NCBI GenBank assembly: GCA_016882285.1
Contig: VGQS01000011.1
Span: 1 to 35,114, forward strand
DNA length: 35,114 nt
DNA from: Cyanobacteria bacterium K_DeepCast_35m_m2_155
GTDB taxonomy: Bacteria; Cyanobacteriota; Cyanobacteriia; PCC-6307; Cyanobiaceae
Direction of reading: 5' to 3'
Under the pieces are notes generated by a model. That model did no database searches. It was not told where the DNA came from and saw nothing but the letters and a program-made list of their open reading frames with translations. A program made the translations under genes and the position numbers. Positions 13,918 to 18,395 of this stretch are shown in pieces; the stretch's first letter is position 1; the number at the start of each line of letters is the position of its first letter.

Positions 13918-13934
13918 TTGAGAATCGCTTGCAA
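13918..13934 (+). promoter_or_regulatory. Fur-like box, distal copy
   Basis: TTGAGAATCGCTTGCAA lies 55 nt upstream of the Crp/Fnr-type gene. It shares GAGAATCG-Y-TTGCAA with the box before the Cys-rich microprotein. The GAGAAT half and AT-rich flanks resemble cyanobacterial Fur sites, but binding is inferred. Confidence 0.45.
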
Positions 13935-13956: not shown

Positions 13957-13973
13957 TTGCGAGTCATTCGCAA
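13957..13973 (+). promoter_or_regulatory. Palindromic operator, proximal copy
   Basis: TTGCGA-GTCAT-TCGCAA is a perfect 6+6 inverted repeat 16 nt before the ATG of the Crp/Fnr-type gene. It has the same length and outline as the distal copy 22 bp upstream, so it may be a tandem Fur site or an autoregulatory Crp-type site. Confidence 0.5.
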
Positions 13974-13989: not shown

Positions 13990-14604
13990 ATGGCCTTTTC
14001 TCTGCTCAAGCCCCCAGGCGTTCAGCGCGGCGAGCGCGCCTCGGCGGTGCGCTTGCCCCTGGGCCAGTCGGTGCTGCTCAGTGCCGGCATGCGCCCTGAG
14101 GGCTCCTGTCTTGAGGTGCTTGAGGGGGTGGCACGGGTCTATTGCCCCTGCGAAGAAACCGAGGGCATGACCCTGGCCTTTTTGCAGCCTGGCGATCAAC
14201 TGCGCACCGATCGCCTCTGCAGCGAAGGGGTCTGCGTCGAGGCGCTGACGCCGTTGCTGTTTTGCAGTGCTGCCGAACCGCGCGCTGGTGATGGCTTCGA
14301 TGCGGTCAACGAGTGGACTCTGCAACTGCTGCGCATTCGCCATTTGGGCCAGGCCGAGCAACGCCTGCATGCCCTGTTGGCCCTGCTGGTGAACCGTCTG
14401 GGGCGCCGCTGCGGTGGCTGGTGCGATCTGCCCTTTCGCCTGACCCATGAGCGCATCGGCGAGCTGATCGGCACCACCCGGGTCACCACCACGCGCATGA
14501 TGTCGCGCTTTCGCCAGGCCGAGTGTCTCGAGGTGCCCAGCGGCGAGTCCGGTTTGAGGTTGGCGCCGCACTGGGTCGAGCGCGCCCCCCTAGCGGCAGC
14601 CTGA
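13990..14604 (+). CDS. Crp/Fnr-family transcriptional regulator
   Basis: A 204-residue regulator. The N-terminal half is a reduced cyclic-nucleotide-binding-like beta-roll (about 15-90) that lacks an obvious phosphate-binding cassette. The C-terminal winged helix is clear: WCDLPFRLTHERIGELIGTT followed by RVTTTRMMSRFRQ, the recognition helix of the Crp family. ATG at 13990 (MAFSLLKPPGVQRGER) is preferred over an upstream in-frame extension that would run through the operators. The following small gene starts immediately after the stop. Its position opposite a ferritin gene, and the Fur-like boxes, suggest an iron-stress regulator. The effector is unknown. Confidence 0.82.
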   Translation: MAFSLLKPPGVQRGERASAVRLPLGQSVLLSAGMRPEGSCLEVLEGVARVYCPCEETEGMTLAFLQPGDQLRTDRLCSEGVCVEALTPLLFCSAAEPRAGDGFDAVNEWTLQLLRIRHLGQAEQRLHALLALLVNRLGRRCGGWCDLPFRLTHERIGELIGTTRVTTTRMMSRFRQAECLEVPSGESGLRLAPHWVERAPLAAA

Positions 14605-14871
14605 ATGGCCGTTGCCGAGAGCTTGCTGAGCAGCCTGTGCCGCGAGAGCTGCTGGTTGCGCACACGGCTCGGCCGTTTGAGCGCTGATCTGCGCGGCACG
14701 CAGCATCCAGCCCTGGCCGGCCGCTTGCGGCGTGAGCGTGAGACGCTGTTGGCGCGCCGTCGCGAACTGCAGCGTCTGTGCCAGCAGCTGCGCGCTCTGG
14801 GCGCCGCGGACGCGTCGCCGGCGCTGGCCCTGCTGCAGGAGTTGACCTGCAGGCCGATCGTCTGCAGCTGA
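14605..14871 (+). CDS. Small Leu/Arg-rich helical protein coupled to the Crp-type regulator
   Basis: An 88-residue protein whose ATG abuts the regulator's TGA with no gap. The sequence is almost entirely helical (LAGRLRRERETLLARRRELQ, then RLCQQLRALG), Arg/Leu-rich and likely coiled-coil, with five cysteines (Cys12, 16, 59, 82, 87). I do not recognise a family. The operon suggests a partner or modulator of the regulator. It ends 2 nt from the ferritin stop. Confidence 0.6.
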   Translation: MAVAESLLSSLCRESCWLRTRLGRLSADLRGTQHPALAGRLRRERETLLARRRELQRLCQQLRALGAADASPALALLQELTCRPIVCS

Positions 14872-14878
14872 GCTCAGC
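14867..14878. repeat. 12-bp palindrome providing both convergent stop codons
   Basis: GCTGAGCTCAGC is a perfect palindrome containing TGA for the plus-strand small gene and, on the other strand, TGA for the ferritin gene. It is too short and lacks a loop and U-tract to count as a terminator. Confidence 0.5.
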
Positions 14879-15461
14879 CGGCCAGCGATGCCGGTTGGCT
14901 GTTGCCGGCGCTCAGCTCGCCGTCGATCACCAGCAGCGCCGTGGCATCGCCGCGGCCCAGTCGAACACGGCCGAGCAGGTGGGCGACGTGGTGCTCAGCA
15001 GCGATCTGGCCCTGAATGATTGGATCGAGAAACACCGTTGTGCGCACGTCGGCAGCCCGCTCGGCCAGGGCATAGAGCTGCTGCAGCGAGGTGGTGACCT
15101 CCGCCTCCATCTGAAACACCGCAGCCAGGATCTCTTCGACGTTGCTCCACTGCTGACGCGGAGCCGGCAGGGCTTCAAGGGTGACGCTCTGGGCCCTTGA
15201 GATCAGATAGTCGGCAAACAGCGAGGCGTGCTGCTGCTCGTCGGCCGCCTCCTGCTTGAAATGCTGCACGAAGCCACGCAGCTCGCGCTCGGCGCACCAC
15301 AGGGCCATGGCCGTGTAAGCGATGTTCGCCTGACGTTCCATGCTCAGGTGTTGCTGCAGTCCGTCCAGCAGGTCGGGCTCCATCGCCTGGGCCATGGCAC
15401 GGCCACTGGGGCCTGTGCTGATGGAGCCGCTGTTGCTGCCGGCAATGCTGCTTTGAACCAT
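14874..15461 (-). CDS. Non-heme ferritin, Synechococcus type
   Basis: A 195-residue four-helix-bundle ferritin that oxidises Fe(II) and stores it as a mineral core in the cytosol. Aligned to E. coli FtnA, candidate ferroxidase ligands are Glu42 (in SMERQANIAY), Glu75 and His78 (in AADEQQHAS) and a Glu in FQMEAEVTTSL, with Tyr49 near the centre. The stretches CAERELRGF, RTTVFLDPII and DATALLVIDGELSAG match my memory of the marine Synechococcus ferritin. The first 20 residues form a low-complexity extension. The start is the ATG at 15461, and the frame opens further upstream only with TTG. Convergent with the Crp-type operon. Confidence 0.9.
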   Translation of the reverse strand: MVQSSIAGSNSGSISTGPSGRAMAQAMEPDLLDGLQQHLSMERQANIAYTAMALWCAERELRGFVQHFKQEAADEQQHASLFADYLISRAQSVTLEALPAPRQQWSNVEEILAAVFQMEAEVTTSLQQLYALAERAADVRTTVFLDPIIQGQIAAEHHVAHLLGRVRLGRGDATALLVIDGELSAGNSQPASLAG

Positions 15462-15585: not shown

Positions 15586-15602
15586 AGGAGAATCGTTTGC
15601 AA
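15586..15602 (+). promoter_or_regulatory. Fur-like box before the Cys-rich microprotein
   Basis: AGGAGAATCGTTTGCAA shares 14 of 17 positions with the distal box at 13918 and lies 37 nt upstream of the ATG at 15640. A small inverted repeat (GCAAA...TTTGC) frames it. Fur binding is inferred from similarity and the iron-gene setting. Confidence 0.45.
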
Positions 15603-15639
15603 TTAGGCTGGCTGCAGCTGTTCTGCCCGTGCCCGAGCC

Positions 15640-15783
15640 ATGGCTGTGCCCCTCGGCCCATCCCTCGAAACCAGTGGCCTTGGGCGGGTGTTGGGTCGCT
15701 TGCTGGCCTTGAAGAAGAAGGGCTGCAAGAAGAAAAAATGCTCCAACTGGAAAGGCGGCAAATGCCGCTGTGGCCGCGATTAG
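15640..15783 (+). CDS. 47-residue Cys/Lys-rich microprotein
   Basis: An ORF of 48 codons, ATG to TAG. The N-terminal half contains a short amphipathic helix (GLGRVLGRLLAL, 13-24). The C-terminal half is a basic cysteine cluster: KKKGCKKKKCSNW followed by KGGKCRCGRD, giving Cys29, Cys34, Cys42 and Cys44 with nine lysines and four arginines overall. The C-x4-C-x7-C-x-C spacing could bind a metal or a cluster, and the charge could bind nucleic acid or a membrane surface. It sits between ferritin and the iron-ABC permease and ends 28 nt before the convergent futB stop. A Fur-like box precedes it. No recognised family. Codon choice and a well-placed stop support it. Confidence 0.6.
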   Translation: MAVPLGPSLETSGLGRVLGRLLALKKKGCKKKKCSNWKGGKCRCGRD

Positions 15784-15811: not shown

Positions 15812-17332
15812 TCAGCGGCGATCGAGCGCCGGCACCAGGGCGGCCGCGGCGATCAGCCCGAACAGCATGATCAACAGCGCCGGTGCCATCGCCGCACCAA
15901 CGCGCTCGTCACTGGCGTACTGAAACACCCGCACCGCCAGGGTGTCGAAATCAAACGGCCGCAGCGCCAGGGTCAAGGGCAACTCCTTGACCACATCGAC
16001 AAACACCATCAGTGCCCCCACCAGCAATGGGCCGCGCAGCAGCGGTAGATGCACGCGCCGCAGCACATCGCTCCAGGCGCTGCCCAGGCTGATCGCGGCC
16101 TCATCAACGCTGGGGGGAATGCGCTCAAAGGCGGCATCGAGGCCTTGTTTGCTGACCGCCATGAAGCGATCTCCGTAGCCCCACAGCAGCAGGAGCAACG
16201 GGCTCAGGGCGAGCGGCCCGCCCAACACGATCAACCCCAACGCCAGCACGCTGCCCGGCACGGCATAGCCCAGGCCGGCCACAAAGCTGAGTTGCCTGAC
16301 GCCGAGCTGGGGGCTCCAGCGGCGCACAATCGCCAGCAGCAGCGCCGCCATCACCGTGACGCCTGCGGCAGCCAGCGCCAGCGACAGGCTGCGCATGGCC
16401 AGGGGCAGCAGCTCGCTCCAGGCCTGGACATTGAGGTTTTGCCAGCCATCCGCCATCCACACCAGTGGAATCAACAAGGCCACAGCAGGCGGCAGGGCGC
16501 ACACCACGACCGCCAGCGCTGCCCGCCAGCCCTGCAGCTGCCAGAGCGGTTGATCCGATGGCGCGCCGCTGAGGTTCCAGCGGCGGCTGCGCCGCCGCAA
16601 CTGCCGCTCACCGGCGATCAGAACCCCCACGATCGCCAGGGCCACCAGCGACAGCAGGGCCGCTCCCTTGGGATCGCCATCGACCTGCCAGCGATCAAGA
16701 ATGCCCGCCGAGAGGCTTGGCACACCCAGCAGGCGCACGGCACCCAGCTCGTTGACCACCTCCATGGCGCTCAGGGCCACCCCGGCTCCGATCGCAGGCA
16801 AGGCGATCGGCAGGGCCACCCTGAAGAAACAGCGCCAGGGCCCGACCCCCAGGCTGCGGCTGGCCTCCATGAGGCGGCGTCCACTGACGGCAAAGCTTTC
16901 GGTGCTCAGCAGAAACACATACCCGTAATTGGCCAGGCTGAGCAGGGCAATGGCCCAGCCCAGCCCATGGATGCGCAGCCCGCGGTAGCTGGCCCAATCG
17001 ATCAGGCTGGCCGCCAGCAGGTAGGCCGGAATCGCCATCGGCAGCAGCTGGGCGATGCGTAACAGACGTCGCCCCGGGAAGCTGCACTCGGCCGTGAGCC
17101 AGCCCGTTGCCGTTCCCAGAATGGCGCCGGCAAGCCCTTCACCAGCGACCAGGGCCAGGGTGCCGCGCACCTGATCGGCGCCATCGACCCCCAGCTCCAT
17201 CGCGGCAGCCTCGCTGCCGATGAGCGCTTCCCATAGCAGGGTGAGCAGCGGCAGCAGAGCCAGCAGGCTCACCGCAACCACCGCCACCACCAGCACCAGG
17301 CGCCGGTCTCCCTTGGGCCATGCCGAAAGCAT
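15812..17332 (-). CDS. futB: Iron(III) ABC transporter permease (FutB/SfuB-like)
   Basis: A 506-residue inner-membrane permease made of two fused BPD_transp_1 halves, with about 12 membrane segments. Each half carries an EAA loop that contacts the ATPase: EASRSLGVGPWRCFFRVALP (about 156-175) and EAAISLGSAWSDVLRRVHLP in the second half. This doubled layout is typical of the Fe(III) SfuB/FutB/HitB class. The start is the ATG at 17332, one codon inside the open frame. It lies 19 nt downstream of futA and is cotranscribed. The ATPase gene (futC) is not in this window. Confidence 0.92.
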   Translation of the reverse strand: MLSAWPKGDRRLVLVVAVVAVSLLALLPLLTLLWEALIGSEAAAMELGVDGADQVRGTLALVAGEGLAGAILGTATGWLTAECSFPGRRLLRIAQLLPMAIPAYLLAASLIDWASYRGLRIHGLGWAIALLSLANYGYVFLLSTESFAVSGRRLMEASRSLGVGPWRCFFRVALPIALPAIGAGVALSAMEVVNELGAVRLLGVPSLSAGILDRWQVDGDPKGAALLSLVALAIVGVLIAGERQLRRRSRRWNLSGAPSDQPLWQLQGWRAALAVVVCALPPAVALLIPLVWMADGWQNLNVQAWSELLPLAMRSLSLALAAAGVTVMAALLLAIVRRWSPQLGVRQLSFVAGLGYAVPGSVLALGLIVLGGPLALSPLLLLLWGYGDRFMAVSKQGLDAAFERIPPSVDEAAISLGSAWSDVLRRVHLPLLRGPLLVGALMVFVDVVKELPLTLALRPFDFDTLAVRVFQYASDERVGAAMAPALLIMLFGLIAAAALVPALDRR

Positions 17333-17351
17333 CAACGCTCTGCCGACTCCC

Positions 17352-18395
17352 TCACTGCCAGCCAGCCTGCGTCATCAGCTGCACGGCCTCGCGGTTGCGG
17401 CGACCCAGCTGCTCCATCGACACCTGTGAGGCCTTAAAGGCGCCGAACCGTCTGAGGGTGGGGTTGTTGCCCCAGCCCCGCAGGGGGTACTCGTTGTTGG
17501 CAGCGGCATAGCCTTCGCCCGAGCTGGGCGAGGCCAGAAATTCGAGCAGTCGCTGCGCCGCCGCTGGGTTGCTCGCGTTGCGGGTGACCCCACCAGCGGT
17601 GATGTTGATGTGGGTCGGGTTGGGCCAGACCACCCGCACCTTCTGGGCGATCTGGCGATCAGCGGCGTTCTCACCGCTCAGCAGCCGCGCCAGGTAGTAC
17701 TGATTGGCAATGGTGACGCCGCACTGCCCCTGACCCACGGCGCGCACCATCGTGGTGTCTGAGCTGTAGAAGGGTTGGCCATTGTTGGCGACCACCCCAC
17801 GAAGCCACTGGGCTGTGGCCCTGGCGCCGCGGCGCACCAGCTCATCGGCCACGAGCGACTGGTTGTAGACGCTGGCGCGGTTGCGCAGGCACAGCTTGCC
17901 TTTGAGCTCTGGCCGGCTCAGGTCGTTGTAGGTGCGAATCAAGGCCGCATTGACCTGGGCGGGGTTGACCATGACCGGCCGGGCCCGGCGCGTCAGGGCG
18001 TACCAGCGCCCGCCGGGGTCGCGCAGATTGGCGGGCACGTCCTTGTTGAGTTCGGATGAGCGGATCGGCCGGAACAGGTTGGCCTGCTGAGCCCGGTACA
18101 GACGGGCCGCATCGACCAGCACCAGCAGATCGGCTCTGCTGCGGCTGCCTTCGCTGCGCAACCGCTGAATCAACTCATCGTCTTTGCCCTCGAGCAGATT
18201 GACCTTGATGCCGGTGCGCCGGGTGAATTCGGCGTAGAGGGCCTTGTCGGTGTTGTAATGCCGCCCGGAGTACACATTGACCTCCTGTGGCGGGCGGCTC
18301 TGCGCCATCACCAGATTGACGCTGCCTGCGGCGGCAGAGGTGAGCACGACCCCGCCCAGGGCAAGCGTGCAACGCAGCAGTGATGGGCGATCCAT
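17352..18395 (-). CDS. futA: Iron(III)-binding periplasmic protein (FutA/IdiA)
   Basis: A 347-residue iron-binding protein of the transferrin-like FutA/IdiA/FbpA class. A signal peptide spans about 1-31 (MDRPSLLRCTLALGGVVLTS, then a MAQS cleavage region). The mature start EVNVYSGRHYNTD holds the first Tyr/His ligands. NGQPFYSSDT and ANQYYLARLL carry the further tyrosines used for Fe(III). It works with FutB downstream, which starts 19 nt after it. No Fur-like box is visible in the 129 nt upstream, so it may be read from a promoter further up the minus-strand run. Confidence 0.93.
   Translation of the reverse strand: MDRPSLLRCTLALGGVVLTSAAAGSVNLVMAQSRPPQEVNVYSGRHYNTDKALYAEFTRRTGIKVNLLEGKDDELIQRLRSEGSRSRADLLVLVDAARLYRAQQANLFRPIRSSELNKDVPANLRDPGGRWYALTRRARPVMVNPAQVNAALIRTYNDLSRPELKGKLCLRNRASVYNQSLVADELVRRGARATAQWLRGVVANNGQPFYSSDTTMVRAVGQGQCGVTIANQYYLARLLSGENAADRQIAQKVRVVWPNPTHINITAGGVTRNASNPAAAQRLLEFLASPSSGEGYAAANNEYPLRGWGNNPTLRRFGAFKASQVSMEQLGRRNREAVQLMTQAGWQ

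Follow-up and report, generated by a model that had tools for sequence, protein, structure and literature searches.

Between a ferritin gene and the gene of an Fe(III)-type ABC permease, the window (the whole 35,114-nucleotide stretch of cyanobacterial DNA analysed here) holds a short open reading frame, and the question that this locus raises is whether so small a frame is a gene at all and, if it is, what its product does among the iron genes that surround it. The ORF (15640-15783, plus strand) translates as MAVPLGPSLETSGLGRVLGRLLALKKKGCKKKKCSNWKGGKCRCGRD, 47 residues and a stop codon, with a variable N-terminus and a conserved Cys4/Lys core, KKKGCKKKKCSNWKGGKCRCGRD. Its cysteines, at residues 29, 34, 42 and 44, are spaced C-x4-C-x7-C-x-C, and 13 Lys or Arg residues stand against 2 Asp or Glu residues. 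A preliminary description of the locus had reported a 47-residue ORF with four Cys and 13 basic residues, and this is exactly what is present; the position that it assigned to the ORF, between a ferritin and an Fe(III) ABC permease, was borne out by matches to PF00210 and PF00528. The ferritin, divergent from the ORF (14874-15461, minus strand; PF00210, E = 1e-26), is a non-heme 24-mer of the SynFtn type (PDB 7pf9, 6gka and 5ouw, E of about 1e-65), and the permease FutB converges on the ORF from the other side (15812-17335, minus strand), next to an Fe(III)-type, FutA/IdiA-like substrate-binding protein (17352-18395, minus strand; SBP_bac_6, E = 3e-16). A Crp/Fnr-family regulator gene (13990-14604, plus strand; PF13545, E = 3e-10) belongs to the same island.

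Used as a query, this single microprotein sequence matches relatives in most genomes of its family, with a best E of 5e-15 outside its own genome. With a 20-row profile and a presence threshold of E ≤ 1e-3, the microprotein was found in 140 of 201 Cyanobiaceae genomes and in 102 of the 130 of good quality, carriers including Synechococcus, Cyanobium, Prochlorococcus, Aphanothece and Ca. Synechococcus spongiarum. The N-terminal half varies among members; the core reads KKKGCKxxKCSxWKGGxCxCG, in which C29, C34, S35, W37, G39, C42 and C44 are invariant across 84 aligned members. The net charge is strongly positive throughout (median +10, range +6 to +14 in 124 distinct members). Among 90 distinct core sequences, many synonymous codons are used at the invariant residues, and pairwise dN/dS has a median of 0.13 and lies below 0.5 in 95% of 812 pairs, so that the ORF is far beyond chance, with purifying selection acting on its amino acids. 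The preliminary description had named the lack of a conserved ORF in relatives and noncoding-like substitution as the two results that would speak against a gene; both were looked for, and the 140 carrier genomes and the dN/dS of about 0.13 identify the microprotein as a genuine, strongly conserved coding family of picocyanobacteria.

Two profile searches outside the Cyanobiaceae, over the phylum and the class, returned nothing credible (fragments with E > 0.004 at best). Copies were absent from 50,697 phage records and from viral contigs, on which ground a phage origin was rejected. No Pfam or NCBIfam model covers the microprotein (84 members scanned against Pfam), and a profile search of the PDB yielded as its best hit a 14-residue match with E = 1.5 and no relative of known structure; membership of a known protein family was accordingly discarded, as was a known RNA family or riboswitch at the locus, where Rfam matches were at chance level. 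AlphaFold, supplied with the 84 sequences, gave no confident fold (mean pLDDT 64, pTM 0.27). Gene finders and annotation pipelines can easily miss a gene of 47 residues, and a search of the iron-stress literature found nothing specific on this one. An array study of MED4 described 113 new ORFs of 33-130 aa (PMC2518516), among which the Prochlorococcus member may be included. A stand-alone form of 31 aa, e.g. MPDKKKKKKCKKKKCSAWKGGKCICHG, occurs away from iron genes in Prochlorococcus-like genomes (L236-L239, L241-L244) and shows no significant Fur-type box; in genome G078 the two forms coexist.

To place the family in its genomic context, the 140 copies were taken with as much as 5 kb of flanking sequence at either end, searched in six frames and scanned with profiles built from the neighbours. 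In 101 of the 140 (about 72%) a ferritin is no more than 1.3 kb away, divergent and upstream in 85, convergent and downstream in 15, and otherwise arranged in 1; the convergent downstream ferritins are partly of another subtype, about 30% identical to the ferritin of the window. The Crp-type gene was within 3 kb of 99 copies. Of the 39 copies lacking an adjacent ferritin, 26 are within 2 kb of some other gene of the iron island (Fut permease or binding protein, Crp, porin, Fur, ABC ATPase), and the remainder includes the 31-aa stand-alone form.

Two further features of the island were observed. An 88-aa protein encoded between the Crp-type gene and the ferritin (14605-14871, plus strand) is without a Pfam or NCBIfam match, and a profile of its relatives finds a match within 3 kb of 85 of the 140 microprotein copies, which makes it another conserved but uncharacterised gene of the island. 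The same assembly also contains a second Crp-ferritin-microprotein-FutB-FutA cluster (G000:C74:1-7129; L113, L085), whose ferritin is 65% and whose FutB is 77% identical to the first, and which represents either a duplication or a mixed-strain bin.

The same 201 genomes were then searched with the ferritin of the window and with the Ferritin profile, the Crp-type gene and FutB serving as controls. In the 130 good-quality genomes, the microprotein and a ferritin of the SynFtn/FtnA type were both present in 101 and both absent from 25, with ferritin only in 3 and microprotein only in 1, a concordance of 126/130 (Fisher p = 2e-22; since the genomes are related, Fisher p-values overstate their independence). 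FutB was uncoupled to the microprotein (p = 0.2) and the Crp-type gene only weakly coupled (p = 2e-4). Both states occur in 12 genera, with agreement almost without exception, and the absences were re-confirmed by a looser DNA pattern in the genomes checked. The sole genome with a microprotein only, G192, is complete, and its match (G192:C1:1619514-1619639) carries two in-frame TGA stops, a remnant as expected if the microprotein gene decays after ferritin loss. The three genomes with ferritin only (G003, G146 and G184) are complete and Prochlorococcus-like, and they count against the explanation that we favour below. Most of the 25 genomes with neither gene retain another PF00210 protein, as detected with the Ferritin profile, which means that the coupling is to the SynFtn/FtnA type. 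Thus, genomes keep or lose the microprotein together with this 24-mer non-heme ferritin.

Such a pattern could in principle arise by hitchhiking, i.e. an unrelated gene could track ferritin merely by sharing with it an iron island that genomes acquire or lose whole, and with the two genes no more than 1.3 kb apart in most genomes, one deletion would take both. However, 17 of the 25 genomes that have neither still carry the island's Crp-type gene, and the linkage comes in at least two arrangements and with two ferritin subtypes. Further, genera g6 and g31 carry the genes on different contigs or, mostly, hundreds of kb apart (in one g31 genome, G155, one ferritin is 28 kb from the microprotein), and still 16 genomes have both and 3 have neither. 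Concordance between unlinked genes is not easily explained by single deletions, and we consider hitchhiking very improbable. By itself, the phyletic coupling means that the microprotein works with ferritin; it fits release, loading or inhibition alike and does not distinguish among them.

A second line of evidence lies upstream of the ORF, where a Fur-type box, GGAGAATCGTTTGCAA (15587-15602, plus strand), exactly repeats the box, GAGAATCGCTTGCAA (13920-13934, plus strand), that a box-repeat search of the window located before the Crp-type gene; a second Fur-like palindrome, TGCGAGTCATTCGCA (13958-13972, plus strand), read directly from the sequence, stands 38 bp downstream of the latter. The motif GAGAATCGNTTGCAA occurs exactly twice in the window at up to two mismatches, at 13920-13934 and 15588-15602, where 0.2 occurrences would be expected by chance, in agreement with the earlier remark that the box before the ORF matches the one before the Crp-type regulator. 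Across the whole 1.74-Mb genome, at up to one mismatch, there are 3 sites, all in this iron island or its second copy, and the reversed-pattern control gave 0. A site of this type precedes the Crp-type gene in the window, and a strong palindrome stands before that gene in one Prochlorococcus-like genome, as noted when other box matches in three marine genomes were examined for known Fur targets.

Beyond the window, boxes were counted by one common criterion, a position no more than 200 nt upstream of the first Cys codon. By this count, 60 of the 140 copies are preceded by a Fur-type box, whereas shuffled sequence gave about 0.5 and a stretch farther upstream, taken as a control, 4 of 131, so that the box is found in a large share of the lineages; the 80 copies without one include that of the second cluster in this genome. 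In marine copies, an evident Fur-type palindrome occupies a constant position close upstream of the start and in many cases immediately follows a TATAAT-like -10 element, e.g. TATAATGAGAATCAGTCTCAGTTGC. Prochlorococcus shows the box most clearly, e.g. TGATAATGAATATCA immediately ahead of the start, and the clade of the window reads GAGAATCGNTTGCAA. Because the box is also found at copies without an upstream ferritin, it belongs to the microprotein gene. From these sites we infer that the repressor acting at the box is Fur and that the microprotein is induced by iron starvation. Of the claim in the preliminary description that this is an iron-responsive protein binding metal or nucleic acid, the first part has gained support from the 60 boxes; the second is suggested by the four invariant Cys and the basic charge. 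In the spacer between ferritin and microprotein, Crp/Fnr-like palindromes, TGTGATAAAAATCACA, GTAACATTAATCACAT and ATACAACATTTTGTAT, were also seen (e.g. upstream of the core in L058, L045 and L095); through them the Crp-type regulator of the island itself might act on ferritin.

Considering these observations together, the explanation that we favour, at a little below an even chance, is that the microprotein is a cationic, metal-binding protein, made upon iron starvation, that partners the 24-mer non-heme ferritin and most likely releases or handles its iron. When iron is scarce, Fur would leave the promoter box and the microprotein would be made; its four invariant Cys would hold a metal, be it iron or an iron-sulfur centre, or Zn; its lysine-rich surface would dock on the acidic shell of ferritin; and, once docked, it would either deliver electrons to the mineral core or accept Fe2+ and carry it away, with stored ferritin iron returning to metabolism as the outcome. 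The residue composition favours such docking, basic and acidic residues numbering 13 and 2 in the microprotein and 12 and 22 in the ferritin subunit. If a cationic Cys4 protein is induced by starvation and retained only alongside one type of ferritin, its simplest role would be to act on that ferritin. A reading of the microprotein as an off-switch would explain co-occurrence, linkage and the Fur-type box equally well: induced by starvation, the protein would bind the shell or the threefold channels and stop iron deposition or mark ferritin for turnover, and an acidic shell is a fitting target for a short cationic peptide. This is the closest rival, to which we assign a rather low probability; four invariant Cys with an invariant W and G suggest a metal or redox centre, for which a plain plug would have no need.

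Two other accounts bear less directly on ferritin itself. In the first, which we regard as unlikely, the microprotein would be a Fur-regulated small basic RNA-binding protein that aids an iron-sparing small RNA on mRNAs such as that of ferritin. Its CKKSKC segment may resemble zinc-bound nucleic-acid-binding CXC modules, which would speak for this account, as do size, strong basic charge and the Fur-type box, all of which match FbpA, FbpB and FbpC of Bacillus (54, 48 and 29 aa; PMC8464778). However, a general RNA chaperone should not vanish exactly with ferritin, and even for the Fbp proteins RNA binding is unproven (PMC8464778). Since the microprotein tracks the 24-mer non-heme ferritin even when the two genes are far apart, a partner of ferritin is favoured over a general nucleic-acid binder. 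In the second account, a shade less probable again, the microprotein would act in the cytosol as a metallothionein-like buffer of metals or as a chaperone of iron, taking up Fe2+, Zn2+ or Cu+ under starvation without touching ferritin physically. Four Cys within 16 residues agree with this, as does the circumstance that by 2016 no prokaryotic iron chaperone for ferritin iron had been reported (PMC4771812); against it, the Cys content is low (4 of 47 residues), a metallothionein match is absent, and the coupling to ferritin would be merely indirect.

Returning to the ferritin partner, a releasing or receiving role is suggested by what is known of iron mobilisation. According to the same 2016 review, Bfd serves bacterioferritin, understanding of how ferritin releases iron lags behind that of uptake, and reports of a prokaryotic iron chaperone were lacking (PMC4771812). 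Bfd (PF04324) was detected in only 5 of the 201 genomes, always within larger reading frames. Poorly understood release, the missing chaperone and the near-absence of Bfd together lead us to favour the view that the microprotein releases ferritin iron or receives it. Somewhat more tentatively, non-heme bacterial ferritins could have in this family their first dedicated partner, a Cys4 protein of about 40-50 residues that has no kinship with Bfd and, under Fur control, mobilises the iron of ferritin or receives it.

Iron limits growth over large areas of the ocean in which Prochlorococcus and Synechococcus dominate, and the carriers of the microprotein include the most abundant photosynthetic organisms on Earth. 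The role of SynFtn is debated, and one in the stress response has been suggested (PMC7762939). A tiny protein that tracks SynFtn-type ferritin across the whole group is a concrete, testable candidate for the missing partner; no relatives of the family were found, and its role, if true, would be that of a small cysteine partner of a ferritin, a known kind of function.

Among small proteins of known systems, NsiR6 and CP12 are likewise cyanobacterial, widespread in the phylum and equipped with two Cys pairs; however, NsiR6 is phylum-wide and nitrogen-responsive, CP12 acts on Calvin-cycle enzymes, and neither is described there as ferritin-linked or iron-controlled (PMC5126843, PMC7760959). Metallothioneins of the SmtA type are similar as short, Cys-bearing cytosolic proteins with possible metal binding in common, but the microprotein has only 4 Cys in 47 aa, is very basic and is without a Pfam or NCBIfam metallothionein match. 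With FbpA, FbpB and FbpC of Bacillus subtilis it shares small size and basic charge; the Fbp proteins are under Fur control (PMC8464778), for which the box makes the microprotein a candidate. A conserved Cys4 core and ferritin coupling are features of the microprotein family that set it apart from Fbp by description. Bfd, finally, is a small Cys protein whose gene often adjoins that of a 24-mer ferritin, is expressed differently from ferritin and supports iron release on need (PMC7762939, PMC12363616). The microprotein gene resembles it in its linkage to a 24-mer ferritin in 101 of 140 copies and in the Fur-type box before 60, with Ftn and not Bfr as the partner. The cysteines of Bfd fall into a CxC pair towards the N-terminus and a CxxC pair far from it, whereas the invariant C-x4-C-x7-C-x-C of the microprotein lies at the C-terminus; further, the 84 members scanned against Pfam gave no Fer2_BFD (PF04324) match up to E = 1, the partner is a non-heme ferritin, and Bfd itself is nearly absent from Cyanobiaceae genomes. 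If it acts as proposed, the microprotein would do for this ferritin the same job that Bfd does for haem-containing bacterioferritin, by way of an unrelated protein.
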